64,000 bases of DNA, from NCBI RefSeq assembly GCF_004120195.1, contig NZ_SCHN01000008.1, forward strand, positions 65,314-129,313. The letters are read 5' to 3'. A program made the position numbers and the translations under genes. Shown one piece after another: positions 22,790 to 41,272 of this stretch (position 1 is the stretch's first letter; every line of letters starts with the position of its first letter). This DNA comes from Enterovibrio baiacu (lineage in GTDB: Bacteria > Pseudomonadota > Gammaproteobacteria > Enterobacterales > Vibrionaceae). The notes under the pieces are model-generated. The model saw only the letters and a list, made by a program, of their open reading frames with translations, was not told the origin of the DNA and did no database searches.

Positions 22790-23239
22790 ATGCTAGAACA
22801 GAAAAAAGACGCGACACATCAAAACAGCGAAAGCATACAAATGCTTAAAACGGGTTCGATCCGACGCGACCCATTCATTCGCGCCTTCCTCGAAAAGATC
22901 CCTTCTGATGTCGAAAAGACCTTCACCGATGCGCAATTGCTGCAAGTGAAAATCATGTATGGCACACGTGCCAAAGCCAGCCACATGGTGGATATTCGAA
23001 CCGTGGTCGGGGCATGGAATTGGCAATACTATCTCGTGTTTTTGTTTGGTCGTAACCGCCGTGATTTAACCCGCGCTGAACAAACGATTTCCAATATCTC
23101 GCGCGTGTTAATCCTCCTTCTTGGCACTTTTGTACTGTTTTGCGTGGTCACGGTATCGCTGTATTTACTCAAGTCTTTTGCCGGCATAGACATACTGCCG
23201 AACTTTTCCTTTGGCCTCTGGCATCAGCTCTCCGCCTAA
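22790..23239 (+). CDS. Conserved membrane protein of unknown function between flgJ and flgK
   Basis: 149 residues. No signal peptide; residues about 1-105 are cytoplasmic-looking and polar, followed by one hydrophobic span (ISRVLILLLGTFVLFCVVTV...) and a short tail. The motif order FLEKIPSDVEKTFTDAQL, then a basic patch, then HMVDIR and YYLVFLFGRNRR resembles a small domain I have seen in many proteobacterial proteins of unknown function, so it is a real gene. The place between flgJ and flgK suggests, but does not prove, a flagellar link. Hairpins lie on both sides, so it may be a separate transcript. Confidence 0.75.
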   Translation: MLEQKKDATHQNSESIQMLKTGSIRRDPFIRAFLEKIPSDVEKTFTDAQLLQVKIMYGTRAKASHMVDIRTVVGAWNWQYYLVFLFGRNRRDLTRAEQTISNISRVLILLLGTFVLFCVVTVSLYLLKSFAGIDILPNFSFGLWHQLSA

Positions 23240-23397: not shown

Positions 23398-25275
23398 ATG
23401 GGTTTTGATTTGCTGGCGCTGGGTGCTCAAGGCGTCCTAACAGCACAACGACAGCTGAATACAACGGGCCACAATATCTCTAACGTGAACACGGAAGGGT
23501 ATAGTCGCCAGTCTGTAGAGCAGCGCGCGAACGACACTGCCTATTGGTCTGCAAACCAGTGGGGGCAAGGTGTACACGCGGCGTCGGTGCGTCGTAATTA
23601 CGATAAGTTTGCCGCCAACGAATTCAGTATCTCCACCTCTGCGCTTAGCCATGCGACAACCCGCAACAGCCAGCTCACCATGCTGGATGACATGATGTCC
23701 CACTCCGCCAAGAAAATTCCTGAAAACATGAATGAATTCTATGGTGCAGTAAAAGGCCTGACAGACAGCCCGAGTGACATGGGCGCACGTAAAGTGGTGC
23801 TCGAAAAATCCCGCTTGGTTGCTGCGGGTCTCAACGACATGAACAACATTCTTCAATCGCAAGAGATGGATACTTCCGTTGAAATCGATGCCACGCTGAC
23901 GCGTATGAATGATATTGGTGCGGAAATCGTCGACATTCACAGGGCCTTGTTAAAAAGCCAAGCCGTTGATAACGATTTGCTAGATAGACACCAAAGCTTG
24001 ATTAACGAGCTGTCCGAATTTACCCAAGTGAGCGTGAACCAACGTGATGATGGTTTGTATAACGTCATTATTGGTAGCGGGCATACCTTGGTATCTGGTT
24101 TACATGCCAGTGAATTGAAAACCGTCCCTGGTGATCCAGACCACCAAAAACGCCGATTGGCACTGGTGGAAGGCAAAACCCTCAAAGCCATTGATAATGA
24201 TGATATTCGCGGCAAATTGGGCGCGATGTTTGAGTACCGTGATAGTACATTAGGCCAAGTGCGCGACGAGTTAGGGCGACTGGCGGCGGGTTTTTCCATG
24301 TCGCTGAATGACATGCAATCCCAAGGTTTTGATTTGAGTGGCGCGATTGGTGAGAAAATCTTCACGGATTTCAACGACGATAGAATCTCTCGAGATCGCG
24401 TCATCAAAGGCTCAAACTCGACGGCAGATATCAAAGTCACGATCGAAAACTTGTCCGCGCTTAAAATTGGTGATTACCAACTGAAGTTCGACGGCAGCCA
24501 ATACACCTTAGTTGACCCAGAAAAGAACACGGTAAATGTCACTCCTACAGGCACGCCACCTGCGTTTGAATATGATGGTTTGAAAATCCAAGTTGATGCA
24601 GGACTTGCTGCTGGCGAGCGCGTGATTATCCGACCGCTTCGACAAGCGGCAGGGCAAATTGGCGTCACCATGGAAGACCCGGCAAAAATTGCCGCCCAAA
24701 GCTACGTGAGCTCCAAATCCAACATTACTGGCCAAGGCGATGTGAAAATACTGACGCAAGGTGCGCAGCAAGAATTTCAAGTCGCGATCTCGCCAGATGC
24801 CACCCAGTTCGCTGTGTTGGACATGAAAGGGAACATTCTTGTTGCACCGCAGGCATACCCGCCTGCTGGGGCTGTGAATGTGAATGGTACTGTGTTTGAG
24901 CTTTCTGATGGTGCTGCGCCGGAAGATGTCTTCGCCATTAGCCTCCAACCCGCAGATGGAGAGAACGGCAACCTGATCCGCATGCAAAAGCTGCAAACGC
25001 AGAAACTGATGGACGGTGGTCGCTCGAGCTTGATTGACGTGTATGAAGGCTTGAACACTGACATTGGTGTGCAAAAGGCCTCGTTTGCGCGCTTGGAAGA
25101 CGTAAGCCGCGTTGAACATGATGCCGCAGCCGGGCGCGTCGCAGAAATTTCTGGCGTTAACCTCGATGAAGAAGCCGCAAACATGATGAAGTTTCAACAA
25201 GCGTACATGGCTTCCTCACGCATCATGACCGCAGCCAATGAAACCTTTGAAACTCTGTTGAGTGCAACCCGATAA
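23398..25275 (+). CDS. flgK: Hook-filament junction protein FlgK (HAP1)
   Basis: First junction zone between hook and filament; client of FlgN. 625 residues, with NTTGHNISNVNTEGYSRQSV at the N-terminus and the C-terminal GVNLDEEAANMMKFQQAYMAS typical of FlgK. Full length. The stop is 11 bases before flgL. Confidence 0.97.
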   Translation: MGFDLLALGAQGVLTAQRQLNTTGHNISNVNTEGYSRQSVEQRANDTAYWSANQWGQGVHAASVRRNYDKFAANEFSISTSALSHATTRNSQLTMLDDMMSHSAKKIPENMNEFYGAVKGLTDSPSDMGARKVVLEKSRLVAAGLNDMNNILQSQEMDTSVEIDATLTRMNDIGAEIVDIHRALLKSQAVDNDLLDRHQSLINELSEFTQVSVNQRDDGLYNVIIGSGHTLVSGLHASELKTVPGDPDHQKRRLALVEGKTLKAIDNDDIRGKLGAMFEYRDSTLGQVRDELGRLAAGFSMSLNDMQSQGFDLSGAIGEKIFTDFNDDRISRDRVIKGSNSTADIKVTIENLSALKIGDYQLKFDGSQYTLVDPEKNTVNVTPTGTPPAFEYDGLKIQVDAGLAAGERVIIRPLRQAAGQIGVTMEDPAKIAAQSYVSSKSNITGQGDVKILTQGAQQEFQVAISPDATQFAVLDMKGNILVAPQAYPPAGAVNVNGTVFELSDGAAPEDVFAISLQPADGENGNLIRMQKLQTQKLMDGGRSSLIDVYEGLNTDIGVQKASFARLEDVSRVEHDAAAGRVAEISGVNLDEEAANMMKFQQAYMASSRIMTAANETFETLLSATR

Positions 25276-25286
25276 GGATATGACTG

Positions 25287-26480
25287 ATGATTAGCCGTAT
25301 TGCCAGTTTCCACAACTATCAGTCTGTCTCGAATGATTTGATGCGCCAGCAGGTCAAACTGCAAGACAACCAAGACCAGCTTGCAACAGGTAAGCGCGTG
25401 CTCACCTCGGGCGATGATCCTGTTGCGTCTATCTACATTCAGAACTTCCGTCAGCAAGACAAGCAACTCGATCAGTACATTGATTCGATCACGCTGGCGC
25501 GTAACCGCCAAACCCGCGCTGAAATCGCGATTGATGATTCGGAACAATTGATCGATAGCGCCAAGCGCACCACGATGGAAATGATCAACGGCTCGCTTTC
25601 AGACGACGACCGTGCTGCGCACAAGCAAGACATGAAAGGTTTGTACGATAACTTCATGAACTTGGTGAATGCCAAAGATGAGTCCGGCAATTTCTTGTTC
25701 TCGGGCACGCAAGCGAGCAAGCAGCCGTTCTACCGTGATAACGCGGGCAATGTACGTTATGCCGGCGACAGCTATCACCGTACGGCACAAATTGCTCCTG
25801 CAGTCGAAGTGCAAACCAGCGATCCGGGTGATGAAGTCTTCATGGAAATCAAAAACCCATTTGGTGATTATCAGCCTGACTATGCATTGGAAAGTGGTTC
25901 TCTGTTGTTATTAGCGTCAGCGACCAACACCAACAATGCGGATACGTCCGACTATGCGGTGAATTTCAGTGTCGATGGCAATGGCCAAACGCTGTACGAA
26001 CTGACGCAAAATGGCGCGATGGTGAGTTCGGGCGTTTACGACCCAGCCACCGGTGTGCAATGGGGAACGCTAAGCGCGAGTTTTGAAGGCGAAATGCTGG
26101 ATGGCGATTCCATCACATTGGCGCGCCAAGACACCTTCAACGTGTTTGATGCGTTTAGAAAAGGCATGGAGTTGTCTGAAGAAAGTATCTTCAATGCATC
26201 AGCGACTGCAGAGCTGCACCAAGTGACAGAACAGTTTGCGGCGGCGTTTAAGCATTTGAACAAAGCACGTTCGGAAGTGGGTACGCGCTTGAACACGCTC
26301 GATCGCCAAGAGAGCATGCACCAAGATTTCAAACTGGTGCTAAACCGTTCACTCGGAACGATGGAAGACTTGGATTACTCGACGGCCGTGATAGACATGA
26401 ATGAAAATCTGCTGGCACTGCAAGCGTCGCAACAAGCGTTTTCAAAAACCAAAGAGCTGTCGCTGTTTAACTACATTTAA
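25287..26480 (+). CDS. flgL: Hook-filament junction protein FlgL (HAP3)
   Basis: Second junction protein, binding the first flagellin layer. 397 residues; N-terminal flagellin-like helix (RQQVKLQDNQDQLATGKRV), a variable middle, and C-terminal SQQAFSKTKELSLFNYI. Co-transcribed with flgK. The accessory segment begins right behind it. Confidence 0.96.
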   Translation: MISRIASFHNYQSVSNDLMRQQVKLQDNQDQLATGKRVLTSGDDPVASIYIQNFRQQDKQLDQYIDSITLARNRQTRAEIAIDDSEQLIDSAKRTTMEMINGSLSDDDRAAHKQDMKGLYDNFMNLVNAKDESGNFLFSGTQASKQPFYRDNAGNVRYAGDSYHRTAQIAPAVEVQTSDPGDEVFMEIKNPFGDYQPDYALESGSLLLLASATNTNNADTSDYAVNFSVDGNGQTLYELTQNGAMVSSGVYDPATGVQWGTLSASFEGEMLDGDSITLARQDTFNVFDAFRKGMELSEESIFNASATAELHQVTEQFAAAFKHLNKARSEVGTRLNTLDRQESMHQDFKLVLNRSLGTMEDLDYSTAVIDMNENLLALQASQQAFSKTKELSLFNYI

Positions 26481-26661: not shown

Positions 26662-27546
26662 CTACAAAAACTGCTTTCTAAACGCCATCGGCGTCATGTT
26701 CTTAATCGCTTTAAATTGGCGATTAAAATTCGACAGATTTGAAAACCCTACCTTTTCAGCCACCACGGCTATGGGCGTTTTTGTGCGCATCAGCAGTTCA
26801 CACGCTTTGCCTAAGCGATAGCGTTTTAGGTGATCAGAAAAACTCTCTGAGAAATGTTTTTCGAACATGCGGTACACCGAACTTTCACTCATATGCAAGT
26901 GGCGACACATATCATCCACGCCGAGAGGTTTATGATAGTGGTCTGCAATGAACTGCTGTGCTTTCTCAAGCTTGTCATTAATTGGCGAGTCTTTGGCGAC
27001 GTAAAAACAGTAAGGCCTTGATGTGAGGGGCTTGGCGGCTTTGTCTTCGCACAGTAGCAGTAAGATGTCGATGACATGTGAGAACTGAACGGACGGTTTC
27101 AAATCACAGGCATCACGCATCAATGCATGCAGTTTCTCACCGGTATCAGGCGAAAATTTGAGGCCTTTGTGGGCGCGGACCAACAACGCTGAAATAGGGG
27201 ACAATTCAGGCACGGTTGCAATCAGCGATTCTAGCCAGCATTGATCGAGCCAAAGTACGTGTGAACTGGCGGGGTGCTCTTCTGTTGCGGATGCCGTGCT
27301 GCTAACCATATGCGGCAGCCCCGGGCCCATGAGGTACGCACAGTTGTGTTCCGCATCGCCAATGTAGTCACCCAGCACGGTTTTGGCGCTCACCACCCCA
27401 TGTGGGTCTTGATATACCACGAGTTCAATTTCGTTGTGATAGTGCCAACCGCAGTGGGACTCTCTCACCGTATGATCGCAGTGATAATCAACGAAATGCC
27501 AAGACAAACTTGTCGATTTATCAACGGGTTCAATGGTTGGCTTCAT
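26662..27546 (-). CDS. AraC-family transcription regulator
   Basis: 294 residues. The N-terminal cupin-like sensor domain (about 15-110; HCGWHYHNEIELVVY, LMGPGLPHMV) probably binds a small molecule. The C-terminal AraC DNA-binding domain (about 190-294) has two helix-turn-helix motifs: LGVDDMCRHLHMSESSVYRMF and IAVVAEKVGFSNLSNFNRQF. It is divergent from the sugar transporter at 27732 with a CRP-like site between them, so it most likely controls that gene in response to a carbohydrate. The ligand is not known. Confidence 0.9.
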   Translation of the reverse strand: MKPTIEPVDKSTSLSWHFVDYHCDHTVRESHCGWHYHNEIELVVYQDPHGVVSAKTVLGDYIGDAEHNCAYLMGPGLPHMVSSTASATEEHPASSHVLWLDQCWLESLIATVPELSPISALLVRAHKGLKFSPDTGEKLHALMRDACDLKPSVQFSHVIDILLLLCEDKAAKPLTSRPYCFYVAKDSPINDKLEKAQQFIADHYHKPLGVDDMCRHLHMSESSVYRMFEKHFSESFSDHLKRYRLGKACELLMRTKTPIAVVAEKVGFSNLSNFNRQFKAIKNMTPMAFRKQFL

Positions 27547-27640
27547 CTTGCGTGCTCTTTCATCAAATTGGCGGTATTCGCATCAGTTTTTACGCATGTT
27601 GTCAGTGAAAAGAAAGATGTTGAAGGAATAGTATTAGTTA

Positions 27641-27662
27641 TTGCGTGATATTTATCACATAT
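27641..27662. promoter_or_regulatory. CRP (cAMP receptor protein) binding site
   Basis: GTGA, six bases, TCAC at 27645-27658, embedded in TTGCGTGATATTTATCACAT: a good symmetric match to the CRP consensus, in the 185-bp divergent gap between the regulator and the transporter. Confidence 0.7.
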
Positions 27663-27731
27663 GCAATGTGTTTGTTTCTAAAATTCACTACGTAAATTAA
27701 GTGCACCCGTTTTAGATAGAGAGAATTTGAG

Positions 27732-28949
27732 ATGAGAAATTACGGTCGTTTTTTAACGCAAAAAACGCCTTTGGGTTACCTGCTTGTATGCCTCTTTGCT
27801 GGGCTTGGAAGCGGCTTTTTCTACCCTCTGTCAGGCCTATTTGTGGTTGATGCGCTGGGTGCATCGCCTTTACAAATGGGGATTTTTCTCGCGTTTTCTA
27901 TTTTGAGCGGCGTGTTGGTTTCACAGCGCATTGCTAAGCGATCTGACCTCGGTTTAGACAGACGCAAAATCATCTTGGCATCGCAAATGAGCTTTATTGT
28001 TGTCATGGTGCTGTTTCTGTTTATCCGAAACTATTACTTAGCATTGGCGGTGATGGTGTGCATTTCCAGCTTTAGCGCCGCGGCAATGCCGCAAACCTTT
28101 GCCATTGGTCGCGAGTACGCAGACAAAGAACTGGGAAATAACGCCACGCTTTTTCTGTCATTGATGCGCGCCATGATGTCGTTGTCTTGGGTGATTGGTC
28201 CACCGTTAGCGTTCATCGTGAAAGATGCGGTCGGCTTCAACGGGGCATTTGTGTTTGCGGGCACCATGATGAGTATTTCTGTGATGATCGTTTGGCGTTT
28301 GTTCCCGTCAGTGACCATCAAGAAAGAAGAAACAGCAGCGCCTGTTGTTAATCACTCATGGCGACGTATTGACGGTGTACCCATGTACATTGCCGCCGTG
28401 TTCATGCTGTTCTGGGCGAACAACATGTATGTCACCACGATTCCATTGTACGTGTCGAAAGAACTGGCGATGAATGGTGCGGTGGCAGGGCAATTGTTGG
28501 GGCTGGCAGCCTTCGTTGAAATCCCTGTCATGATTTTGGCCGGACTATGGGCAACGCGTGTTGACCCACAAAAGCTGATGATCCTTGGCGTTACTGCGGC
28601 GTGTTTGTTTTACACCTTGCTGTGGGGCGCAGAAGAACTGTGGCAAATGTATGCCCTTCAATTGTTAAACGGCACGGCAGTTGGGATTTGTGCGGGCCTT
28701 GGCATGGTGGTTATCCAAAACAAAATGTCGACCCAAATGGGTGTGGCGACCACCTTGTTTAACAATGCCATCATGGTGGCAAGCCTGATTTCGAGTGTGA
28801 CCGTGGGGGTGATTGCGCAGTTCTTTGATTATCACTCCGTGATTGGCGCAATGATCATGGTTGGGCTGGTGGCGCTGTTGCTCTTGATGCTTTCTGTCAG
28901 AGAGAAAAAACAGCCTTGTCCACCTGAAGCATCGGTTGAGGTGCATTGA
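27732..28949 (+). CDS. MFS sugar efflux transporter, SetA/SetB-like
   Basis: An inner-membrane exporter with about 12 hydrophobic spans (405 residues). The sequence RNYGRFLT...GSGFFYPLSGLFVVDALGASPLQMG, then a loop with RRKI between spans 2 and 3, and RAMMSLSWVIGPPLAF look like the SetA/SetB sugar efflux family, which removes sugars or sugar analogues. The substrate cannot be read. The divergent AraC gene and a CRP site support a carbohydrate role. No flagellar relation is visible; it is an insertion between flgKL and the flagellins compared with the usual Vibrio order. Confidence 0.85.
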   Translation: MRNYGRFLTQKTPLGYLLVCLFAGLGSGFFYPLSGLFVVDALGASPLQMGIFLAFSILSGVLVSQRIAKRSDLGLDRRKIILASQMSFIVVMVLFLFIRNYYLALAVMVCISSFSAAAMPQTFAIGREYADKELGNNATLFLSLMRAMMSLSWVIGPPLAFIVKDAVGFNGAFVFAGTMMSISVMIVWRLFPSVTIKKEETAAPVVNHSWRRIDGVPMYIAAVFMLFWANNMYVTTIPLYVSKELAMNGAVAGQLLGLAAFVEIPVMILAGLWATRVDPQKLMILGVTAACLFYTLLWGAEELWQMYALQLLNGTAVGICAGLGMVVIQNKMSTQMGVATTLFNNAIMVASLISSVTVGVIAQFFDYHSVIGAMIMVGLVALLLLMLSVREKKQPCPPEASVEVH

Positions 28950-28992
28950 TTCACGTATCGTGAAAGCGAAGAGAAGACAGCGAATAAAAGAG

Positions 28993-29021
28993 AAAAGGTC
29001 AGCGGATGCTGACCTTTTTTT
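28993..29021. terminator. Terminator between the transporter and TPR-glycosyltransferase genes
   Basis: 11-bp stem AAAAGGTCAGC / GCTGACCTTTT, loop GGAT, T run; usable in both directions. Confidence 0.92.
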
Positions 29022-29049: not shown

Positions 29050-31152
29050 TTATTTCAAGCGTGCTTGCACGTGTTTCGCCATGGATGTTAACAGCGGGTA
29101 CTTGTCTTCAAGCATTGGCGGATAGAAATAGCCGTACTCGTTTTCGCAATAAATGTCTGCGGGCTGATCAAAGCGAGATTCTGTCGTACCTGCAAAGAAG
29201 ACATGACAAGGCGTGCCGACGGCGGTTGTTAAACGGTGAACGGCGGTACCTGCGGTGACCACAGCATCTAAACCCGCGATGACGGCCGCGGTTCCATCGA
29301 AATCGTCACGTAAATCTAGCCCTTCAAGCTGCACAACGTGAACACCTGAAAGCTTGTGAATCTTCTTCAACTCTTTACTGCACTCGCCGTATTGAAGGTT
29401 GATGAAGACGGCATTGGGGAATTGCTTCAACAAATACGCCACTTCTTCGGCGACCAAGTAATGCATGTTACGCGTTGCCGCTGCCAAACCACTTCGCCAA
29501 CACAATCCAATCAGCGGTGCGCCTGGGTTGTTCGTACGGATGTCATCTAAACGCGATTGCCATTGTTGCTTCAATGCATCTGGCGTTTTGACATAGCCAG
29601 ATTGAAAAACATGTCTGCCGTACTGCTCAAAACACAATGCCGCCAAACTTCCCCCGGGAATCCAACTGGTGATGTCAGCCAGGACCTCCTGTGGCAATGT
29701 GATGTCTGTGTTGTCTGTGCGCTTCACGGGCACCATGATGGCGTCTGGGAAGGCGTTACTGAGCACGCTCTCAAGGCGAGGGTCGCAGGCCACGTACGCT
29801 TTCTGACAGTTGTCCAATACCAATTGCAGGTTGTGGAAGTAGAGAATTTCATCCCCTACACCTTGCTCCGGCATCACCAACACGATGTCGTCTTTAGGAC
29901 GGTTCAAATTCCATTGTGGCAATTCGCCCTTGTAACGCAGACGTCGACCACAGGTAATACCGAGCTCATTGGCCTTGTAATACTTGTCCCACTCTTCGAG
30001 GGTGCGGTACACGAAACTGACGTTAAAGCCCGCATCAATGTCATTCGGGAAGCGCGTTAAATACTCTTCGAGCAAGTGCTTGGATTTTTCTGCGTCACCT
30101 TTGTACCAAAGCACTTCGGCGAGGTAGGTAGACAGGCGCTCTTTGTTTTCTTCATTCGCCATTTCCGCTGCGCGTTCGATGTGCTTTTGGCACTCGATAA
30201 TGGCTGACGGTGTGAAATTGTGTCGGGTTCTGAGCAAGTTAAAACTCGCGGTGGCAAGGCGATAACGTAAATCCGCGTCTTTGCCATGTTGTTTGATGCT
30301 TTCCGTTGCCGCGCGATAGGCTTCAAGCCAGTTTTGTTCTTTCTCGTAGCTTTGAACAAGCAGGCGGCAAAGGATGGAATCTTCCGGCCAGTGCTTCATG
30401 CCTGCAAGGCATAACTTGCGGGCAGAGGCGAATTGCTCAAGCTTGATGTCGCAGTGGCTAAGGAGAACAACCACGTCTTTTTCTGGCGCGTGTTCAACGT
30501 AGGCGCGCATCAAAAATTGACGCGCCAAACCCACGTTGTCTGCTGCAAGCTCCAACCTTGCCAGCCCAACCAAGGCTGGGATGACATTTCCCGCCACACT
30601 GATCAGCGCTTGGTAAAGTTGTTTGGCTTGTTCTGTGTTGCCCGATGCCATCATTTGTTCAGCGAGTTCGAGGGTTTGCGTGACTTCATCGTTCATGGCT
30701 GACGATTTTTGCTGTTGCAACGATGCCATTTCTTTTGCTGTACGACGGCTTTCGCCGCGTTGACCGATTGTCGCGGTCAGTTGTTGCCGCATGGCAAGCA
30801 ACTCTTCATGGTCTGGCAACACGCCCAGCAAGCTATCAACGATCTCTAGCGCATCTTTGTTCATGCCTTGCTGCGCCAGAATATTGGCTTTATCAAACAA
30901 GAGTGACGCGTTTCCCGGCTCCACGAGCAGTGCGCGATCGAGTTTTTTGATGGCCTCTTGCCACAAACCGTCCTCCACATCGAGCACGGATAAGACTTGC
31001 AGCACAGGGACGCTGTCAGGCGCAACAACTAGGATCTGCTCAAAGACTTGTCGTGCTTCTATTTTCTTTTCGTGTTGATACAGGAAAACGCCATGTTCGA
31101 AGGCTTGTTCTATCGACATGGTGCCGTCGTTGGTTTGTGAGGTATCGGTCAT
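29050..31152 (-). CDS. TPR protein with C-terminal glycosyltransferase-like domain
   Basis: 700 residues, no signal peptide, so cytoplasmic. Residues about 1-400 are tetratricopeptide-like helical repeats (for example AIKKLDRALLVEPGNASLLFDKA). Residues about 420-700 look like a GT-B fold transferase of the heptosyltransferase/OGT-like group: PEQGVGDEILYF near 430, PLIGLCWRSG, and near the end a DAVVTAGTAVHRLTTAVGTPCHVFF donor-site block. TPR plus GT proteins commonly glycosylate other proteins. The gene stands head to head with the flagellin locus and has its own near-consensus sigma-54 promoter, so flagellin or hook glycosylation is my inference. LPS or another protein as acceptor remains possible. 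Confidence 0.75.
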   Translation of the reverse strand: MTDTSQTNDGTMSIEQAFEHGVFLYQHEKKIEARQVFEQILVVAPDSVPVLQVLSVLDVEDGLWQEAIKKLDRALLVEPGNASLLFDKANILAQQGMNKDALEIVDSLLGVLPDHEELLAMRQQLTATIGQRGESRRTAKEMASLQQQKSSAMNDEVTQTLELAEQMMASGNTEQAKQLYQALISVAGNVIPALVGLARLELAADNVGLARQFLMRAYVEHAPEKDVVVLLSHCDIKLEQFASARKLCLAGMKHWPEDSILCRLLVQSYEKEQNWLEAYRAATESIKQHGKDADLRYRLATASFNLLRTRHNFTPSAIIECQKHIERAAEMANEENKERLSTYLAEVLWYKGDAEKSKHLLEEYLTRFPNDIDAGFNVSFVYRTLEEWDKYYKANELGITCGRRLRYKGELPQWNLNRPKDDIVLVMPEQGVGDEILYFHNLQLVLDNCQKAYVACDPRLESVLSNAFPDAIMVPVKRTDNTDITLPQEVLADITSWIPGGSLAALCFEQYGRHVFQSGYVKTPDALKQQWQSRLDDIRTNNPGAPLIGLCWRSGLAAATRNMHYLVAEEVAYLLKQFPNAVFINLQYGECSKELKKIHKLSGVHVVQLEGLDLRDDFDGTAAVIAGLDAVVTAGTAVHRLTTAVGTPCHVFFAGTTESRFDQPADIYCENEYGYFYPPMLEDKYPLLTSMAKHVQARLK

Positions 31153-31205
31153 ATCTGATCCATCTATTTTGTATCTGCAGCAAGCGGCAGCATTAAAGAA
31201 AATGC

Positions 31206-31222
31206 AGCAAATACCGTGCCTA
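31206..31222 (-). promoter_or_regulatory. Sigma-54 promoter of the TPR-glycosyltransferase gene
   Basis: On the minus strand AGGCACGGTATTTGCT: one base off the consensus TGGCACG-N4-TTGC, with a period of 12 between GG (31220-31219) and GC (31208-31207). About 55 bases before the start codon. Confidence 0.78.
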
Positions 31223-31383
31223 TTGCCTATAACTAATAATAATGTGTCGCTATTGAGTGATTTGTTTTTAGATAAAGAGACATTGCGCTCATTAATGGTA
31301 TCGCTTTTTTGATCAGTAAAGCAGGTTAAAGAAGTGGGGGCACGCAGGGGATATGAATTGCCGTTCTTATTTGAAAAAGTGGT

Positions 31384-31410
31384 TAAATCTTTGCCGCTTT
31401 CGGCCGATAT
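31384..31410 (+). promoter_or_regulatory. Sigma-28 promoter, distal promoter of flagellin 1
   Basis: TAAA, 15 bases, GCCGATAT: a near-perfect FliA site about 205 bases before the flagellin start and 50 bases upstream of the sigma-54 element. Confidence 0.72.
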
Positions 31411-31458
31411 CTCCGCGTTTAAATTTGTAAGCCTTTATAAAGTAAGACTTTCCTAAAG

Positions 31459-31475
31459 TTGGCACACAACTTGAA
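31459..31475 (+). promoter_or_regulatory. Sigma-54 promoter, proximal promoter of flagellin 1
   Basis: TTGGCACACAACTTGAA: perfect -24, period 12, -12 with GA instead of GC as at flgK. It gives a leader of about 130 bases that contains a hairpin TTTCGC / GCGAAA just before the ribosome site AAAGGAG. Confidence 0.75.
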
Positions 31476-31615
31476 TAGGTTTGGGCATGTAGGTATCAAT
31501 ACTGTTTGGTACCGTCCCCAATAACGAACTGAAGCTGGCCCCGCTAAGCAATCGGACTAATCTTGTCGCGGGTAGGCTGTTTCGCAAGAATACGCGAAAG
31601 TCAAAGGAGAGCAAA

Positions 31616-32758
31616 ATGGGTGTAACAGTTAACACCAACGTGTCTGCGATGACTGCGCAGCGTTACCTGAACAAATCGACCAATGATCTTAATACGTCGA
31701 TGGAACGCTTGTCGTCTGGTAGTCGAATCAACAGCGCAAAAGATGACGCTGCGGGTCTGCAGATCTCGAACCGACTCATTGCCCAAACCCGTGGCTTAGA
31801 TGTCGCTATGCGTAATGCGAACGATGGTATCTCTATCGCGCAAACTGCTGAAGGTGCAATGCAAGAATCCACCAACATACTGCAACGTATGCGTGATCTT
31901 TCTCTGCAATCAGCGAACGGCGCGAACGGCAGTTCTGAACGTATCGCGATTCAGGAAGAAGTGGCAGCCCTGCAAGATGAATTAAACCGTATTGCAGAGA
32001 CTACGGCTTTTGGTGGACGTCGCCTGTTGAACGGCTCGTTCGGCGAAGCATCCTTCCAAATTGGTGCGGATTCCGGTGAAGCGATCATCATGGGATTAAC
32101 CAGTATTCGTGCTGATGATTACCGCATGGGGGGAACCGAGTTTGTTGCCGCCAATGCAAAATCTGCAGGCTGGGAAGTGTCAGGGAGTGCAGCGTCATTG
32201 ACGATGGACTTCGTCACCAAAGACGGAAAAACAGTCAGCATTGATATCGCCACAAAAGCAGGCGATGACATCGAAGAGGTTGCAACCTACATCAATGGTC
32301 AATCTGATGAGATGGTGACAGCATCCGTTGATGAGAATGGCCAACTGCAAATCTTCGTCGCAGAAGAGAAGCTGGCAGGCAATGTCACTTTCGGTGGCAC
32401 ATTGGCCGCATCACTTGGCATGACCACGGGCGCAGGCTCGGCAGTGACCTCGAAAGACATCGACGTGAGCACCGTGGGTGGCGCACAGATGGGCGTGGGT
32501 ATCATTGACTCAGCGATGCAGTACATTGACAGCCAGCGTGCTGACTTGGGTGCGAAGCAAAACCGCTTGAGCCACACCATCAGTAACCTGTCGAACATTC
32601 AAGAGAATGTGGCTACGTCTAACAGCCGTATTCGCGATACAGATTTTGCGAAAGAGACGACCGAACTTACGAAAGGTCAGATCCTACAGCAAGCAAGTAC
32701 CTCGATCCTGGCGCAGGCCAAGCAGATGCCACAAGCAGCCCTCAACCTGCTTCAATAA
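31616..32758 (+). CDS. flaA: Flagellin 1
   Basis: Filament subunit, 380 residues, with the conserved N-terminal D0/D1 ([38 protein letters not shown]) and C-terminal D1/D0 ([31 protein letters not shown]). The middle 170-290 is variable. In V. cholerae the first flagellin of this locus, FlaA, is the sigma-54 dependent one essential for the filament; promoter and position agree, and the symbol is given on that basis. A terminator directly follows. Confidence 0.95.
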
Positions 32759-33201: not shown

Positions 33202-34335
33202 ATGGCTATTACAGTAAACACTAACGTGCCTGCAATGACCGCTCAGCGTTACTTGAACAGTTCAACAGACTCGCTGAACGCATCAATGGAGCGTTTGTCT
33301 TCAGGTTACCGCATTAACAGTGCAAAAGATGACGCAGCAGGTCTGCAAATCTCTAACCGTTTGATTTCACAGAGCCGTGGTCTTGACGTTGCAGTACGTA
33401 ACGCCAACGACGGTATCTCAATGGCACAAACCGCTGAAGGTGCGATGGAAGAATCCACCAACATCCTGCAGCGTATGCGTGACCTATCGCTACAATCAGC
33501 TAACGGTGCAAACGGCACTGAAGAGCGTAAAGCGATTCAAGAAGAAGTTGTTGCACTGCAAGACGAACTTAACCGTATTGCAGAAACAACATCATTCGGT
33601 GGTGCGAAACTACTGAACGGTACTTACGGAACCAAGTCTTTCCAAGTAGGTGCTGATGCGGGTGAAGCCGTAATGATGGAGTTCAAAAACATCCGTGCTG
33701 ATGAAGCTATGATGGGTGGTAGCACCTTTACCTCTACGGCTGGCGTATCAATGGCAGATTGGACCGCAACGGGCGGCGCTTCTCTGAACATGACCATCGT
33801 CGATGCAGATGGCGTATCTTCAACAATCAATGTTTCAGCAAAAGCTGGCGATGACGTTGAAGAAGTCGCGACTTACATCAACGGTCAAGCTGACAGCAAA
33901 GTCAGTGCATCTGTGACTGAAAACGGCGAACTACAAATCGTTGCTGCTTCAGGTTCTGATGTGACGTTTGCTGGTGCACTAGCAACGTCTCTAGGCATGG
34001 CGGGTGCAACCAAAGTTGCTGAAACGGTTAAAGATGTTGACGTGAGCTCCGTTGGTGGCGCACAGAAAGCCGTTGGTCTTGTGGATAACGCGATGCAGTA
34101 CATCGACTCACACCGTGCTGAGTTGGGTGCGAAGCAAAACCGCTTGAGCCACACCATTGCTAACTTGGACAACGTTAACGAGAACGTTAGTGCATCTAAC
34201 AGCCGTATCCGTGACGTTGACTTCGCGAAAGAGACTACGCAGTTTACGAAATCTCAAATCCTGCAGCAGTCTGGTACGTCTATACTTGCGCAAGCGAAGC
34301 AAGCACCGTCAGCAGCACTGAGCCTGTTAGGATAA
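33202..34335 (+). CDS. flaC: Flagellin 2
   Basis: 377 residues, paralogue of flagellin 1 with nearly identical ends ([50 protein letters not shown]) and a different middle. The ATG has AAAGGAG upstream. The sigma-28 promoter makes it a late, auxiliary filament subunit, like flaC-type flagellins in Vibrio; the symbol rests on position only. Its last codons form one arm of a hairpin with the flaG ribosome site. Confidence 0.93.
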
Positions 34336-34403: not shown

Positions 34404-34826
34404 ATGGACATATCATCCGTTTCCACGTCATCCCTGTCTCATGTGACTCCACAGTCAGGCACGAAAGTTGCTAGCAGTAATCAATCTGTGGGGGGGACTC
34501 AACCCGAAATCACACACCAACAACAGATGGCAGAGAACGCTGAAAAGCTTCAAAAGCGCCGAGTAGAGCAAGTTAACCAACTCGCAGACACTCGTAAACT
34601 TCAGCAGGAACAGCTTGAAATGTTGGTCGACCGACTGGATGAGTTTGTGTCTACCTTTAATAAAGGCTTGTCATTTCGACTCGATGAGGACTCTGGAAAA
34701 AGTATCGTAACTGTTTATGAAATGAGTAGCGGCGATATTATTAGACAGATTCCTGAGAAAGAAATGTTAGAGCTGGCACAGCAACTGTCTCTTCATGCGA
34801 GGGGGCTAGTAGCAGAAAAGGTATAA
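34404..34826 (+). CDS. flaG: FlaG
   Basis: Small cytoplasmic or exported protein of the polar-flagellum locus; in several bacteria flaG mutants have altered filament length. 140 residues with a polar, Gln-rich N-terminal half and the conserved FlaG C-terminal block LSFRLDEDSGKSIVTVYEMSSGDIIRQIP. Strong ribosome site GGAGGTG. fliD begins 17 bases after its stop. Confidence 0.92.
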   Translation: MDISSVSTSSLSHVTPQSGTKVASSNQSVGGTQPEITHQQQMAENAEKLQKRRVEQVNQLADTRKLQQEQLEMLVDRLDEFVSTFNKGLSFRLDEDSGKSIVTVYEMSSGDIIRQIPEKEMLELAQQLSLHARGLVAEKV

Positions 34827-34842
34827 CTGAGGTGAGTAAAAT

Positions 34843-36210
34843 ATGGGTTTGAGCGCAGCCGGTCTCGGCAGTGGAATGGACATCAATTCCATGGTCAGCA
34901 AAATTGTTGATGCTGAGCGTGCGCCCAAGCAGGAGCGCATCGTTAAGCGCATGAATGATGTTGAAACTAACATCAGCGCTTACGGTAGACTCAAAGACTC
35001 TCTCGATACGATGAAAGGCTTGATGTATGACTTTCGCCGTAATAATACCTTTGCAGCAAGGAGCACGGCTTCCGATAATCCGGAAGCCGTCTCTGCGTCT
35101 GCAGACCACCTGGCTGTTACCGGTGTGTATTCCATCGATGTACAACAGCTTGCTCAATCCCACAAATTGGTGTCAGGCGGCTTAGACGCAGATAGCGACT
35201 TCGGCGCCGGACAATTGGTCATCAGCCTCGGTGGACGTTCAACCACCATAGATATCGCCCAAAACAGCAGTGAGTTGCTGGATATCGTTCGTACCATCAA
35301 CAGCCATCCTTCTAACCCTGGTGTAAAAGCCTCGGTGATTAACGATGACAGTGGTGCGCGTTTGATTCTAGGGGGAGACAAAACGGGGGCTGACAACCAA
35401 ATCGCTGTGACGGTAAATGCGCCACTCACAAGCCCACTACAGGGCTTGGCGTACAACCCAACCAGTGACTTCAATGCCATGAACGAAATGCAAGCAGCGA
35501 AAGATGCGCGCATTTTGATTGATGGTCTGGCATCTGTTTCTAGCGCCACCAATTCCTTCACCGACGCGATTCGTGGCGTAAGCCTCGATGTTTCCCAAGT
35601 TACCACGCCCGAAGAGGGGCCAGTAACGGTCAATGTTGATGAAGACCGTGATGCGGTGAAAGCCTCGCTAGAAAAATTTGTCGATGCCTACAACGCATTT
35701 TATCAAGTTACCAAAGCACTCTCTAAGTACGATCCTGAAACACAGCAAGGTGGACCACTGGTGGGTGATAGCGTGATTCGCTCTGCCACCAGTCAAATGC
35801 GCAGTCTCTTTTCAACACCCGTTGAAGGCGCACCAGACTCCATTCGCACACTCAGTGAACTAGGTATCTCGACCACCATGGATGGCCGCTTAGAAATCAA
35901 TAGCCGTATGCTGGACAAACAGCTGTCGCAGAATTTCTCGGCGTTAGAAGGGTTCTTTGGTGGCAATGACGGTTTTGCCAAAAAAGTGGAAGATACGATC
36001 CATTCTTTTACGGGTATCACCGGTACGATTCGCAACCGTGAAAACAGCCTGAGCGATCAAAAAACACGTTTACGCGACGAACAACAAACGCTCGATCGTC
36101 GTATGACTGATCTTCAAGACCGGACGTTGAAGCAGTTCTCTACAATGGATAACGCCATGGCGGAGATGCAATCTCAACTGTCCGCTATGATGAATATTAT
36201 GCCTTCATAA
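34843..36210 (+). CDS. fliD: Filament cap protein FliD (HAP2)
   Basis: Caps the filament and folds incoming flagellin. 455 residues, N-terminal GLGSGMDINSMVSKIVDAERAPKQ and C-terminal coiled coil (LSDQKTRLRDEQQTLDRRMTDL...) typical of FliD. It is close to the enterobacterial length, shorter than FliD of several Vibrio as I recall them. Ribosome site GAGGTGAG. Partner chaperone candidates flaI and fliS follow. Confidence 0.95.
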   Translation: MGLSAAGLGSGMDINSMVSKIVDAERAPKQERIVKRMNDVETNISAYGRLKDSLDTMKGLMYDFRRNNTFAARSTASDNPEAVSASADHLAVTGVYSIDVQQLAQSHKLVSGGLDADSDFGAGQLVISLGGRSTTIDIAQNSSELLDIVRTINSHPSNPGVKASVINDDSGARLILGGDKTGADNQIAVTVNAPLTSPLQGLAYNPTSDFNAMNEMQAAKDARILIDGLASVSSATNSFTDAIRGVSLDVSQVTTPEEGPVTVNVDEDRDAVKASLEKFVDAYNAFYQVTKALSKYDPETQQGGPLVGDSVIRSATSQMRSLFSTPVEGAPDSIRTLSELGISTTMDGRLEINSRMLDKQLSQNFSALEGFFGGNDGFAKKVEDTIHSFTGITGTIRNRENSLSDQKTRLRDEQQTLDRRMTDLQDRTLKQFSTMDNAMAEMQSQLSAMMNIMPS

Positions 36211-36221
36211 GGGATGCATGC

Positions 36222-36515
36222 ATGTCTCCTCTCTTGGTGAAGCTAGAACGTATCGATAAACATTTGCTGGCTGTGCTAACAGCAGATGTGGTTGACGATG
36301 GTGAAATGGCACAGTTATTGAATGAAAGAAAACACTGTTTAACCGACATTACGATGTTGCCGGAACCGCCGGAAAAAGAGGCTTGGTCAACTGCTGTTAG
36401 CAGAACCCAGCAAATAATGACATTGATAAAAGAACATCGTGATAGTGCTGCCGCCCAAGCAAGTCGATTTATCAAAGGGCGTAAGTCAGTGCAACTTTAC
36501 AAAAAATTCGAGTAG
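36222..36515 (+). CDS. flaI: FlaI, small FliT-like chaperone candidate
   Basis: 97 residues, mostly helical and charged, placed between fliD and fliS as flaI is in Vibrio. Enterobacterial fliT (chaperone of FliD) occupies the corresponding slot, so a chaperone role is likely but not shown by any motif. Two in-frame or nearby ATG codons precede; the third, at 36222, opens the frame. It ends directly before fliS. Confidence 0.8.
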   Translation: MSPLLVKLERIDKHLLAVLTADVVDDGEMAQLLNERKHCLTDITMLPEPPEKEAWSTAVSRTQQIMTLIKEHRDSAAAQASRFIKGRKSVQLYKKFE

Positions 36516-36527
36516 GTGAGGAATGTT

Positions 36528-36932
36528 ATGAGAGGGTCACTTCAGGCCTACAAAAAAGTCTCCGTAGACAGCCAGCTAAGCGCGGCATCACCACACAAGG
36601 TGATCCAGATGTTGATGGCGGGGGCAATTGAACGTTTGATTCAGGGCAAAGCAGCCATGCTGCAAGGTGACATTGCTATGAAGGGCGAACGTCTAGGCAA
36701 AGCCTTGGATATCATTATTAGTCTTAGAACATGCTTGTCGATGGACGAGGGTGGCGAAATTGCATCCAACTTAGATGCACTGTACGACTTTATGATCCGT
36801 CAAATTTCCGAAGCAAACCGCGATAATTTGGACGCACCTATTGATGATGTCATCGATATTTTGCGCGAAATTAAATCAGCTTGGGATCAAATACCCGCCG
36901 AATATCACAATATCACTCAAGCAGGCGCATAA
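36528..36932 (+). CDS. fliS: Flagellin export chaperone FliS
   Basis: Binds flagellin in the cytoplasm and prevents early polymerisation. The ATG at 36528 (134 residues, MRGSLQAYKKVSVDSQLSAASPHKVIQMLM) has GAGGA five bases upstream and fits the Vibrio start; the GTG at 36516 would put that site inside the gene. The YDFMIRQ block near the C-terminus is conserved. Last gene of the flaG to fliS run. Confidence 0.93.
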   Translation: MRGSLQAYKKVSVDSQLSAASPHKVIQMLMAGAIERLIQGKAAMLQGDIAMKGERLGKALDIIISLRTCLSMDEGGEIASNLDALYDFMIRQISEANRDNLDAPIDDVIDILREIKSAWDQIPAEYHNITQAGA

Positions 36933-37106: not shown

Positions 37107-38582
37107 ATGCAAGGTTTAGCGAAGATACTTGTTATCGAGGATGATGAAAAATTTCGTCACGATTTAGGCGTTATCTTGGAGTTTATTGGTGAGCAATACC
37201 TGCTATGTTCAACCACTGAGCTCAACGAGATGCATTGGAAGCAAGCTGAGGGAGCTTGTTTTCTTGGTAATATTCACTCTCCCCAACGTTTATCACAGGT
37301 TCTAGAAAACCTGGCTATCAATAACCACATTCCGGTTATTGCGCTTTCAAAACATAAGACTGAATTATCAGGGCTGGCTAACTTTGTTGGCGAGCTAGAA
37401 TTGCCGTTAAACTATCCACAATTGGCGGATGCATTGCGTCATTGCCAAGAGTTTTTGGGCAAGAACTCAATCAACATCCCGCAGCTGAGCCGCAAGAACA
37501 CCTTGTTCCGCAGCATGGTCGGGCGCAGTGACACCATCAGTGATGTGCGTCATTTGATTGAGCAAGTTGCAGGTACAGAAGCCAGTGTGTTGATTCTTGG
37601 CGAATCAGGCACGGGTAAAGAAGTCGTTGCACGTAACATCCATTACCACTCAAACCGTGGTAAAGGGCCTTTTGTGCCAGTTAACTGTGGTGCTATCCCT
37701 CCTGAGTTGCTTGAAAGTGAGCTATTCGGTCATGAGAAAGGGGCATTTACAGGCGCGATCTCGGCAAGAAAAGGGCGTTTTGAACTCGCAGAAGGTGGCA
37801 CGCTGTTCCTCGATGAAATCGGAGACATGCCGCAGCCTATGCAGGTCAAACTGTTGCGTGTGCTGCAAGAACGAAACTTCGAACGTGTGGGTGGCAATAA
37901 GACCATTCAGGCAAATGTACGCGTGGTTGCAGCGACACACCGCAACCTCGATACCATGATCCAAGAAGGTTCGTTCCGCGAAGATCTGTTCTATCGCTTA
38001 AATGTATTCCCAATTGAAATGCCAGCGCTTCGTGAGCGCATTGAAGACATTCCACTTCTTATCCAAGAGCTTATGGCGCGTTTGGAAGCAGAAGGTGGAA
38101 ACATGGTTCACTTGACACCACGTGCGATCACCTCGCTCATGGAGCACGAGTGGCCAGGTAATGTCCGTGAATTGGCGAATTTGATTGAGCGATTGGTCAT
38201 TCTTTATCCTTCGCAAATGGTCGACGTGAACCGTCTTCCTAAGAAATACCGTTACAGCGACATCCCTGAGTTCCAGCCTGAAATGCATGGTGCATTTGAA
38301 GACAATGAAGAACTCGAGCGTGATGCGTTAAGCGCGGTATTCGCGATGGACGACCTTGATGATGAAGAGCAACCTGGTTTTGGCCCGCAACCTTCGGGGC
38401 TTCCGCCTGAAGGGGTTGATCTGAAAGCCATGTTGGCCGATTTGGAAGTCGACATGATTCGACAAGCCTTAGAAGCGCAGATGGGCATCGTCGCGCGTGC
38501 TGCCGACATGCTCGGCATGCGTCGTACCACCTTGGTCGAGAAAATGCGTAAATATGGACTGAATAAAGAAGGCATTGTCTAA
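37107..38582 (+). CDS. flrA: FlrA, master sigma-54 activator of flagellar genes
   Basis: Top regulator of the polar-flagellum cascade (FleQ family); activates sigma-54 promoters of class II genes. 491 residues: an N-terminal receiver-like domain (FleQ type) without the usual phospho-acceptor (LGNIHSP where an Asp stretch is expected), AAA+ domain with GESGTGKE (165-172) and the sigma-54 contact loop GAFTGA (212-217), and a C-terminal Fis-like helix-turn-helix (about 455-485, [21 protein letters not shown]). Followed by a strong terminator. No sigma-54 site of its own is seen, as expected for the top of the cascade. Confidence 0.96.
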
Positions 38583-38610
38583 GCATTAATCAGTCTGTTG
38601 GCGATAAAAG

Positions 38611-38642
38611 AAACGAAGTCATTTTTTTGACTTCGTTTTTTT
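38611..38642 (+). terminator. Terminator of flrA
   Basis: 11-bp stem AAACGAAGTCA / TGACTTCGTTT, 6-base T loop, T run. Confidence 0.92.
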
Positions 38643-38683
38643 ATGGCCAAACGCATAACACCTTGAAATATATTAATTAATAA

Positions 38684-38700
38684 TTGGCACATATTCTGCT
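38684..38700 (+). promoter_or_regulatory. Sigma-54 promoter of flrBC
   Basis: TTGGCACATATTCTGCT: GG 38686, GC 38698, period 12, about 35 bases before flrB. Confidence 0.85.
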
Positions 38701-38732
38701 TAGTGACACTCAGCGTCAGAAAAACGAGCTGA

Positions 38733-39794
38733 ATGTATAGGATTATGGTAGCCAAAGACTCGCCACTCGGAACCGTGGATCAACAGGTTCTCCGTTACAA
38801 ACAAGTCCTCGATGTAATGCCTGCTGGCGTTATCTTGCTCGATCCCTATGGCCGTGTCGCCGAAGCGAACCCAGAAGCGCGTCGCCTGTTGGGCGAACCG
38901 CTCGACCAAGTGCGTTGGGTGGATGTGATTAACCGTGCTTTTTCGCCACGCGAAGATGACGGTCACGAAGTGTCATTGCGCGATGGTCGTCGCGTTAAAT
39001 TGGCAATTTCCGCGTCCGATTCTGGCCAACTTATTCTGATTACTGACATGACTGAAACACGTTTGTTGCAGTCGCGATTCAGCGATCTTCAACGTTTATC
39101 ATCACTCGGTAAAATGGTGGCATCACTCGCGCATCAGGTGCGAACGCCGCTCTCGAGTGCATTGCTTTACGCTGCAAACCTTGCCGCCCCCAACATCAAT
39201 GAGCCTACCCGTAAGCGCTTCCAAACCAAATTGGTCGACAGACTGCATGACCTTGAAAAGCAGGTGAATGACATGCTGCTGTTCGCCAAAGGTGGGGACA
39301 ACAAAGTGGTGAACTTGTTCACGATTGAGAGCTTGCTGAACGAATTCGAGCCCATGGTTGAAGCCCTTGTCAGCAGCCAAGATATCGATTTTGAAATCAA
39401 CTGTGACGACGAATCTTTAGCGCTGCTAGGGAACGTTAATGCGCTAGCAAGTGCGCTTTCTAATTTGGTCGTGAATGCGATTCAAGTGGCGGGTAAAGGC
39501 AGCAAAGTGGTTGTCGATGCGCGTGCAATGAACGAGCAACTGTTTTTATCCGTGGCCGATAACGGCCCCGGTATTCCTGAAGAACTTCAAAGCAAAATAC
39601 TCGAACCGTTTTTCACCACGCGTCAACAAGGCACAGGTCTTGGCCTAGCCGTTGTACAGATGGTCTGTCATGCCCACAAGGGAAGGCTGACACTGCAATC
39701 ACAACCAGGCCAAGGCACCTGCTTTACGCTCAGCCTTCCATTGGCAGAAAACAGCGATGCTGAGGAGCACGCGGCATCAGGAGAAACACAATGA
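38733..39794 (+). CDS. flrB: FlrB, sensor histidine kinase
   Basis: Cytoplasmic kinase that phosphorylates FlrC. 353 residues without membrane spans: PAS domain (about 20-115, AGVILLDPYGRVAEANPEARRLLG), dimerisation helix with H134 in AHQVRTPL, and an ATPase domain with N (VVNAIQVA), DNGPGIP and GTGLGLAVVQ boxes. An ATG four codons downstream is possible but has no better ribosome site. It overlaps flrC by four bases. Confidence 0.95.
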   Translation: MYRIMVAKDSPLGTVDQQVLRYKQVLDVMPAGVILLDPYGRVAEANPEARRLLGEPLDQVRWVDVINRAFSPREDDGHEVSLRDGRRVKLAISASDSGQLILITDMTETRLLQSRFSDLQRLSSLGKMVASLAHQVRTPLSSALLYAANLAAPNINEPTRKRFQTKLVDRLHDLEKQVNDMLLFAKGGDNKVVNLFTIESLLNEFEPMVEALVSSQDIDFEINCDDESLALLGNVNALASALSNLVVNAIQVAGKGSKVVVDARAMNEQLFLSVADNGPGIPEELQSKILEPFFTTRQQGTGLGLAVVQMVCHAHKGRLTLQSQPGQGTCFTLSLPLAENSDAEEHAASGETQ

Positions 39795-41272
39795 ACCAGA
39801 GCAAAGTACTGATTGTTGAAGATGATGCGGGCTTGCGTGAAGCCCTCGTTGATACCCTTGCGTTAGCGGGTTATCAGTGGCTAGAGGCAGAAAGTGCCGA
39901 GCAAGCCTTGTTACTGCTGAAAAACGAGCAGGTTGATATTGTTGTGTCTGACGTACAAATGGCAGGTATGGATGGGCTTGGGTTGTTACGCAGCTTGAAA
40001 GTGAACTACCCCAAACTGCCTGTATTGTTGATGACGGCTTACGCCAACATTCAAGATGCGGTTTCAGCGATGAAAGAAGGCGCGATTGATTACATGGCAA
40101 AGCCCTTCGCACCAGAAGTCTTACTCAACATGATCAGCCGTTATGCGCCAGTGAAAGCTGACACCAGCGACGCTGTGGTTGCTGACCCAAAAAGTTTGGC
40201 GCTGCTTGCGTTGGCGGACAAAGTTGCCAAAACCGATGCGAACGTGATGATCCTTGGCCCGAGTGGTTCAGGTAAAGAAGTCATGTCTCGTCACATTCAT
40301 CGCCAATCCCAACGTGCTGACGGTCCATTTGTGGCGATCAACTGTGCGGCCATTCCGGAAAACATGCTGGAAGCCACCTTGTTTGGTTACGAGAAAGGCG
40401 CGTTTACCGGTGCTGTTCAAGCATGTCCGGGGAAATTTGAACAGGCGCAGGGCGGAACCATATTGCTGGATGAAATCAGCGAGATGGACTTATCCCTTCA
40501 AGCCAAGTTGCTGCGTGTTCTTCAAGAGCGCGAAGTCGAGCGTTTAGGCAGTCGTAAAAGCATAAAACTGGATGTGCGCGTCTTGGCCACCAGTAACCGT
40601 GACCTGCGTAAATACGTTGAAGAAGGCTGCTTCCGCGAAGATTTATATTATCGCCTCAATGTGTTTCCAATCTCTTGGTTGCCGCTGTGTGAGCGCCAAG
40701 GCGACATCATTCCATTGGCGGAACATTTGCTACAGCGTCATTGCTGCAAAATGGGTGAAGCTGTACCTCACCTACAACCGCAAGCTGCAAAGAAGCTGCT
40801 TACTTACCGCTGGCCGGGCAATGTTCGTGAGTTAGACAACGTCATGCAGCGCGCGCTGATCTTGTGTGAACAAGGCCAGATCCAAGCATCAGACATCTTG
40901 CTGGAAGGCATTGATTGGCAAGACGCGGGCAGCCTACAAAATCTGGTATCGGCATCTGCTGTGGCGACGCCGTCGCTAACTACCGATGCCAAGCATCAAA
41001 CGCCAACGTCACCGCAATATTCTTCCCTGTCTGAGGCTTCGCCGTCTGCGCCTATCAGCGATGCAGAACAGGGTATCAGCAGTGCACCGAATGCGATGCC
41101 GGAAAGCCTAGGTGGGGAGCTCCGTGAACAAGAATTCGCCATTATTCTTGAAACCATTCGCGCTTGCGAAGGGCGTCGAAAAGAAGTGGCTGAGCGTTTA
41201 GGCATCAGTCCTCGAACCTTGAGATACAAATTGGCCAAGATGCGCGATGCAGGCATCGATATTCCCCAGTAA
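39791..41272 (+). CDS. flrC: FlrC, sigma-54 response regulator
   Basis: Activates class III sigma-54 flagellar genes after phosphorylation by FlrB. 493 residues: receiver domain with acceptor D54 (VVSDVQMAGMDG) and MTAY / KPF, AAA+ domain with GPSGSGKE (156-163) and GAFTGA (203-208), a Ser/Thr/Pro-rich linker, then a C-terminal helix-turn-helix (RKEVAERLGISPRTLRYKLAKM). Coupled to flrB. Confidence 0.96.
   Translation: MNQSKVLIVEDDAGLREALVDTLALAGYQWLEAESAEQALLLLKNEQVDIVVSDVQMAGMDGLGLLRSLKVNYPKLPVLLMTAYANIQDAVSAMKEGAIDYMAKPFAPEVLLNMISRYAPVKADTSDAVVADPKSLALLALADKVAKTDANVMILGPSGSGKEVMSRHIHRQSQRADGPFVAINCAAIPENMLEATLFGYEKGAFTGAVQACPGKFEQAQGGTILLDEISEMDLSLQAKLLRVLQEREVERLGSRKSIKLDVRVLATSNRDLRKYVEEGCFREDLYYRLNVFPISWLPLCERQGDIIPLAEHLLQRHCCKMGEAVPHLQPQAAKKLLTYRWPGNVRELDNVMQRALILCEQGQIQASDILLEGIDWQDAGSLQNLVSASAVATPSLTTDAKHQTPTSPQYSSLSEASPSAPISDAEQGISSAPNAMPESLGGELREQEFAIILETIRACEGRRKEVAERLGISPRTLRYKLAKMRDAGIDIPQ

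Follow-up and report, generated by a model that had tools for sequence, protein, structure and literature searches.

Why does a putative glycosyltransferase gene face the flagellin genes of a polar flagellar locus, and when is its product made? The question is raised by a 64,000-nucleotide stretch of Enterovibrio baiacu DNA (assembly GCF_004120195.1, contig NZ_SCHN01000008.1, positions 65,314 to 129,313), here called the window, in which a gene for a FlmG-like tetratricopeptide repeat glycosyltransferase (TPR-GT) of 700 amino acids, P0001, occupies 29050..31152 on the minus strand. We propose, at a probability of roughly 0.8, that P0001 is a soluble cytoplasmic flagellin O-glycosyltransferase that is timed by sigma-54 and adds a nonulosonic acid (NulO). 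A flagellin glycosyltransferase under sigma-54 is suggested because the gene is preceded by a conserved -24/-12 element, lies at the flagellin locus in 35/35 Vibrionaceae carriers, is accompanied by a NulO synthase in the same 35/35, and resembles FlmG. Position, co-occurrence, and FlmG similarity thus favor the flagellin glycosyltransferase that the first-pass annotation of the window had put forward, and no finding points to the hook or rod, which it had named as alternative substrates.

Architecture and fold of the TPR-glycosyltransferase

Open reading frame (ORF), domain, and structure searches agree on a 700-codon minus-strand gene with TPR repeats and a C-terminal GT-B domain, as the first reading of the sequence had described it. 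A TPR superhelix (residues about 14-400, 29953..31113, minus strand), predicted by analogy with FlmG to be the flagellin-binding part, is followed by a GT-B domain that takes on a GT9 fold in structure comparison (residues about 416-700, 29053..29907, minus strand). This N-terminal TPR joined to a C-terminal GT-B is the FlmG-type architecture. Sequence searches with P0001 against Pfam, NCBIfam, and PDB return almost exclusively TPR matches; the glycosyltransferase (GT) part has no significant match to a curated sequence family in these searches, and Pfam Glyco_transf_9 gives no match up to E 0.1. By structure, the GT domain aligns best to GT9 enzymes and to TibC, a heptosyltransferase by its PDB title. 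Foldseek with the whole P0001 model ranks SPY and OGT first. A kinship of the GT domain with GT41/OGT was rejected, as the domain alone matches GT9 best. The comparison with GT41 and heptosyltransferases that had been proposed earlier therefore yields a GT9-like GT domain, with the GT41/OGT likeness residing mainly in the TPR part.

Across 13 aligned GT domains, Caulobacterales FlmG among them, 19 positions are invariant. They include the EQGVGDE motif (residues 429-435, 29848..29868, minus strand), in which every residue except V432 is invariant; its D434 is a candidate for the catalytic base, on account of the resemblance of the motif to WaaC Asp13. A second motif of the GT-domain alignment, NLQYGEC (residues 585-591, 29380..29400, minus strand), has NLQYGDC as its counterpart in FlmG. 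The G+C content of the gene is 0.51, against 0.49 for the window. The nearest database protein, from E. norvegicus, shares 96% identity over residues 375-700, and such enzymes carry the database name "tetratricopeptide repeat protein" or similar.

P0001 and FlmG are each other's single convincing sequence match (26% identity, GT part only), align in hhalign at 99.96 over 514 columns, and have the same best GT9 structural match.

Position at the flagellin locus

The TPR-GT gene occurs in 24/37 Vibrionaceae of a first set and in 35/197 of a wider set that includes those 24. A flagellin start lies on the same short locus in 23 carriers and about 2.6 kb away in G004; the other 11 loci were read individually. 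In two of these 11 (G512 and G530), the gene is divergent from flgK-flgL-flagellin genes; after it come an ORF of 226-232 aa and genes for a LegI/NeuB-type synthase and for PseF-related and NeuC-like proteins. The flgL gene directly adjoins the TPR-GT gene in most other-genera loci among the 11 further carriers; the window has AraC-type regulator and MFS transporter genes (26662-28949) between the two.

More distant relatives share loci with both sugar and flagellar genes. In two genomes from other families of the order (G046 and G060), one locus holds a 24%-identical relative together with flagellin, flaG, fliD, and a complete pse operon, and in G363 a relative is surrounded by pseB, C, G, I, flagellin, and fliD. 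A relative of the GT domain is present in 52/369 Gammaproteobacteria, in some as part of a very long ORF that holds several GT domains. Three such ORFs (G178:C344, G293:C226, and G390:C110; L200-L202) each span 2069-2730 aa in a single frame and contain 3-4 GT domains of the family, and no flagellin genes are found in the stretches fetched around them.

The sigma-54 element and the intergenic region

Upstream of the gene lies the -24/-12 element AGGCACGGTATTTGCT (31206..31221, minus strand), which has the GG-N10-GC spacing and departs from the consensus at one position. The sigma-54-type element noted in the first-pass annotation is thus borne out and is kept among Vibrionaceae orthologs. Its spacing implies a computed transcription start near 31195 and a leader of about 43 nt. 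The window has 24 sigma-54 matches with at most two mismatches, close to the 16.4 expected by chance, but the 11-position core is found 2 times versus 0.10 expected in the window and 4 times genome-wide versus 2 for a reversed control. Conservation appears to be the stronger argument. In 24 Vibrionaceae orthologs, the element forms a conserved island within a fast-changing stretch; all 11 positions are retained in 14/24 and at least 9 in 20/24, as happens in 0.7% of mononucleotide-shuffled regions, and all 7 examined of the 11 further carriers have 9/11. A conserved GG-N10-GC in a TGGCAC/TTGC context has the sequence features expected of a sigma-54 promoter. Upstream of the open genes of G002 and G014 (3.6-3.7 Mb) and of G004 (2.1 Mb), genomes smaller than most of their congeners, the element is unrecognisable.

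The start of the TPR-GT gene is 463 bp from the oppositely running flagellin gene at 31616. A second sigma-54-like element, TGGCACACAACTTGAA (31460..31475, plus strand, two mismatches to the consensus), faces that flagellin, which gives the intergenic region the look of a bidirectional sigma-54 unit. The stretch separating the two elements (31222..31459) contains two TTGCCG hexamers (31358 and 31391) and is a candidate shared activator site. Over the intergenic regions of 24 related genomes (window 31153-31615), CGGCAA/TTGCCG occurs 62 times in 10.8 kb, against 3.4 expected from mononucleotide shuffles (18-fold) but about 13 at the whole-window rate of 1.23 per kb (only about fivefold); this enrichment was noticed post hoc and comes from genomes that are related. 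The hexamers may mark an activator site; literature searches for an FlrC site yielded nothing usable. Another full 11-position core, GGCACGAAAGTTGCT, lies within flaG (34458-34472, plus strand).

Co-occurrence with nonulosonic acid synthesis

In the host genome, a single operon holds pseB, C, F, G, H, and I. It lies elsewhere on the contig of the TPR-GT gene, with hisIE on one side and a gene for MTA/SAH nucleosidase on the other; all six pse genes score above the NCBIfam cut-offs. No convincing sigma-54 or sigma-28 element is found in the 250 bp upstream of the pse operon in the five genomes searched.

A strong NulO synthase, defined as a PF03102 match at E 1e-30 or better, is present in 94/197 Vibrionaceae, namely all TPR-GT carriers and 59/162 others. 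The one-sided Fisher value is about 1e-13, uncorrected for kinship, which inflates it (17/35 carriers belong to one genus). The association is visible within genera too. In genus g1, 17 genomes have both genes and G012 has neither. In genus g7, a synthase accompanies the TPR-GT gene in each of the six carriers, at least nine genomes have neither gene (G023, G036, G432, G436, G440, G444, G452, G455, and G458), and at least six have the synthase only (G470, G476, G480, G492, G504, and G541).

The type of synthase varies between carriers. In the first set, each of the 24 carriers was typed, three extra synthases (G009, G011, and G025) giving no clear type: a PseI-type synthase, of the pseudaminic acid (Pse) pathway, is present in 21/24, and three (G022, G031, and G032) have only the Leg/Neu type, Leg being legionaminic acid. 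G022 has LegC-, NeuC-, and NeuB-type genes above cut-off. Among the 11 further carriers, typing covers G429, G433, G441, G448, G472, G482, G512, and G530, with one synthase each in G433 and G448, which have two. Five of them, all in g7, have Leg/Neu-type genes, in G448, G472, and G482 as a Leg cluster and in G512 and G530 beside the TPR-GT gene; in genus g9, G429 and G441 have pse operons, and G433 has a Leg cluster plus a second, untyped synthase. This distribution suggests a change of donor at a constant locus.

Two genomes behave in opposite ways. The 2.1-Mb genome G004 keeps both the TPR-GT gene and the pse operon. G012 (2.6 Mb) has flagellin, flgK, flgL, flaG, and fliD and lacks both the TPR-GT gene and a NulO synthase; its flagellar locus holds no remnant of the former (tblastn, no match below E 0.05). 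G004 matches an anglerfish symbiont described in the portion of PMC6020299 available to us, and G012 is a candidate for the second such symbiont; according to that portion, both retain motility genes.

Proposed mechanism

From the observed architecture, fold, conserved promoter element, gene order, co-occurrence, and FlmG relation, we infer the following location, donor, acceptor, activator, and chemistry. The N-terminal TPR superhelix would bind newly made flagellin in the cytoplasm. The C-terminal GT-B domain would then transfer a NulO from a CMP-activated donor, in the host probably CMP-pseudaminic acid from the pseBCFGHI operon, to flagellin Ser/Thr before export. Transcription would start from a sigma-54 promoter that faces away from the flagellin promoter and is probably activated by FlrC or FlrA, so that the enzyme should appear when flagellin does.

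A broader proposal is offered tentatively, at somewhat below even odds. A separate TPR-GT branch may modify the polar flagellins of Vibrionaceae, with more than one donor change while the sigma-54-timed locus stayed the same: Enterovibrio/Grimontia and Salinivibrio would use Pse, whereas Veronia and a Photobacterium-like genus (a guessed label for g7) would use Leg. Only the transferase, and not the sugar pathway, would be under flagellar control, hence the transferase would time glycosylation. Across proteobacteria, flagellin loci may have acquired TPR-GTs on several independent occasions.

Weighing the explanations

Several observations weigh against a sigma-54-timed flagellin NulO transferase. 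The 59 non-carriers with a NulO synthase indicate that NulO has other uses, and Pse is not universal among carriers, because three of the 24 typed in the first set have only Leg/Neu-type synthases. TPR-GTs at large are not specific to flagellin: in a class survey of the best region of each of the 20 best-scoring genomes beyond G000, flagellin genes occur in only 5/20 fetched regions (5/20 contigs are <9 kb), so that genomic position must carry the argument. The sigma-54 element falls below 9/11 in G002, G004, G014, and G020, though the TPR-GT gene is open. Six of the 35 copies are split between two frames (G001, G005, G029, G031, G445, and G449), with the break in the TPR part in five and in the GT part in one, and G029 has three further stops; these copies may reflect assembly error or decay. 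Phase variation was considered for them and rejected, as no run of 6 A/T or 5 G/C lies within 60 bases of the breaks in the four of six viewed. In a midpoint-rooted 57-row tree, the Vibrionaceae and G046/G060, the latter as long branches, form a branch apart from FlmG, split at 100/99, and FlmG groups with two alphaproteobacterial rows at 100/99. P0001 does not share a branch with Caulobacterales FlmG as a strict ortholog would, and is called FlmG-like for this reason.

Three other explanations fit parts of the evidence. A flagellin glycosyltransferase that uses heptose, GlcNAc, or another nucleotide sugar would suit the best fold matches of the GT domain, GT9 enzymes and the heptosyltransferase TibC. 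Such a donor is unlikely, as the Pse-dependent FlmG (available text of PMC7591256) has the same best GT9 match, every carrier has a NulO synthase, and relatives lie in loci that also hold pse or leg/neu-type genes. Alternatively, the enzyme may modify lipopolysaccharide (LPS), capsule, or another secreted protein, its flagellar position being incidental. The GT9 fold is typical of LPS enzymes, and many members of the large family are not seen near flagellin genes; the flagellin-locus position kept across genera, the sigma-54 element, and the same divergent position as FlmG make this explanation quite improbable. TPR proteins are often chaperones, and the GT activity of P0001 is a prediction, so that P0001 might instead act on flagellin as a noncatalytic chaperone or regulator whose GT domain is inactive. 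This is very improbable given the 19 invariant GT positions with their EQG-GDE motif and the tracking of NulO synthesis by the gene. Transfer of a NulO to flagellin by P0001 therefore remains the preferred explanation.

The surrounding flagellar locus

The window carries a polar flagellar region with flgK, flgL, two flagellins, flaG, fliD, fliS, FlrA- and FlrC-like activators, a sensor kinase, and fliE. The predicted acceptors are flagellin 1 (31616..32758) and flagellin 2 (33202..34335), both on the plus strand. They are followed by flaG, fliD, a 97-aa ORF (no Pfam match at E 1e-8), and fliS (34404..36932, plus strand), and by the likely activators (37107..41272, plus strand): an FlrA-like protein with FleQ and sigma-54 activator domains, a sensor kinase, and an FlrC-like response-regulator activator. 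On the other flank lie flgK and flgL (23398..26480, plus strand), with a 149-aa ORF ahead of flgK (22790-23239) that has no Pfam match at E 1e-8. A terminator annotated on the plus strand and predicted on both (28990..29021) separates the MFS gene from the TPR-GT gene.

Implications

If the proposal holds, a sizeable part of the Vibrionaceae (35/197 sampled genomes) decorates its polar filament with sialic-acid-like sugars, and such decoration would extend to the 2.1-Mb genome that matches a bioluminescent anglerfish symbiont. The family would provide a second lineage for studying how the TPR part chooses flagellin and what makes the GT part select Pse or Leg, and natural genome pairs are at hand for the test. 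No description of a Vibrionaceae flagellin TPR-GT is found among the literature matches listed (the best 25 of 57 in one listing, with subscription literature mostly outside its scope).

Comparison with known systems

Maf proteins transfer NulO to flagellin (PMC13317340, as far as its text was available), the role predicted here for P0001, but belong to another family: PF01973 (MptE-like/Maf) is not among the Pfam matches of P0001. Maf was rejected as the flagellin transferase of the host, whose genome has no PF01973 match. In three congeners, a Maf gene and a second, shorter flagellin gene, the latter with open frames of 285-294 aa, lie some 1 kb apart (G001:C36, 36-38 kb; G003:C67, 160-162 kb; G017:C79, 16-19 kb). 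The TPR-GT gene stays with the polar-type flagellins there, apparently with one transferase per flagellar system. TibC and the GT9 heptosyltransferases WaaC/WaaF share the GT-B fold of the GT9 kind, but they use heptose donors, have no flagellin locus, and are 7-14% identical to P0001 in structural alignments. O-GlcNAc transferase and SPINDLY (GT41) likewise join a TPR superhelix to a GT-B domain; their donors are UDP-GlcNAc or GDP-fucose, whereas the GT domain here matches GT9 better. The FlmG orthologs of Caulobacter and Brevundimonas are reportedly specialised for Pse or Leg, as Kint et al. are said to have described in EMBO J in 2023. These related TPR-GTs are paired with a Pse or Leg pathway, a pairing that gene content suggests for the Vibrionaceae.

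FlmG of Caulobacter crescentus is the closest parallel. It is a TPR-GT that glycosylates flagellin in a Pse-dependent manner (Ardissone et al. 2020, PMC7591256, in the text available to us). P0001 shares with it the order of domains and the motifs, although the Enterovibrio TPR part is longer. The flmG gene is divergent from a flagellin cluster, as the TPR-GT gene is here, so that a described member in such a position, of which the first-pass annotation knew none, does exist. Both genomes have a NulO pathway and no Maf (for Caulobacter according to the same text, for the host by genome search). FlmG is cell-cycle regulated in that account, whereas the TPR-GT gene stands behind a predicted sigma-54 element. 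P0001 would thus be a known kind of enzyme, FlmG-like, in a new lineage.
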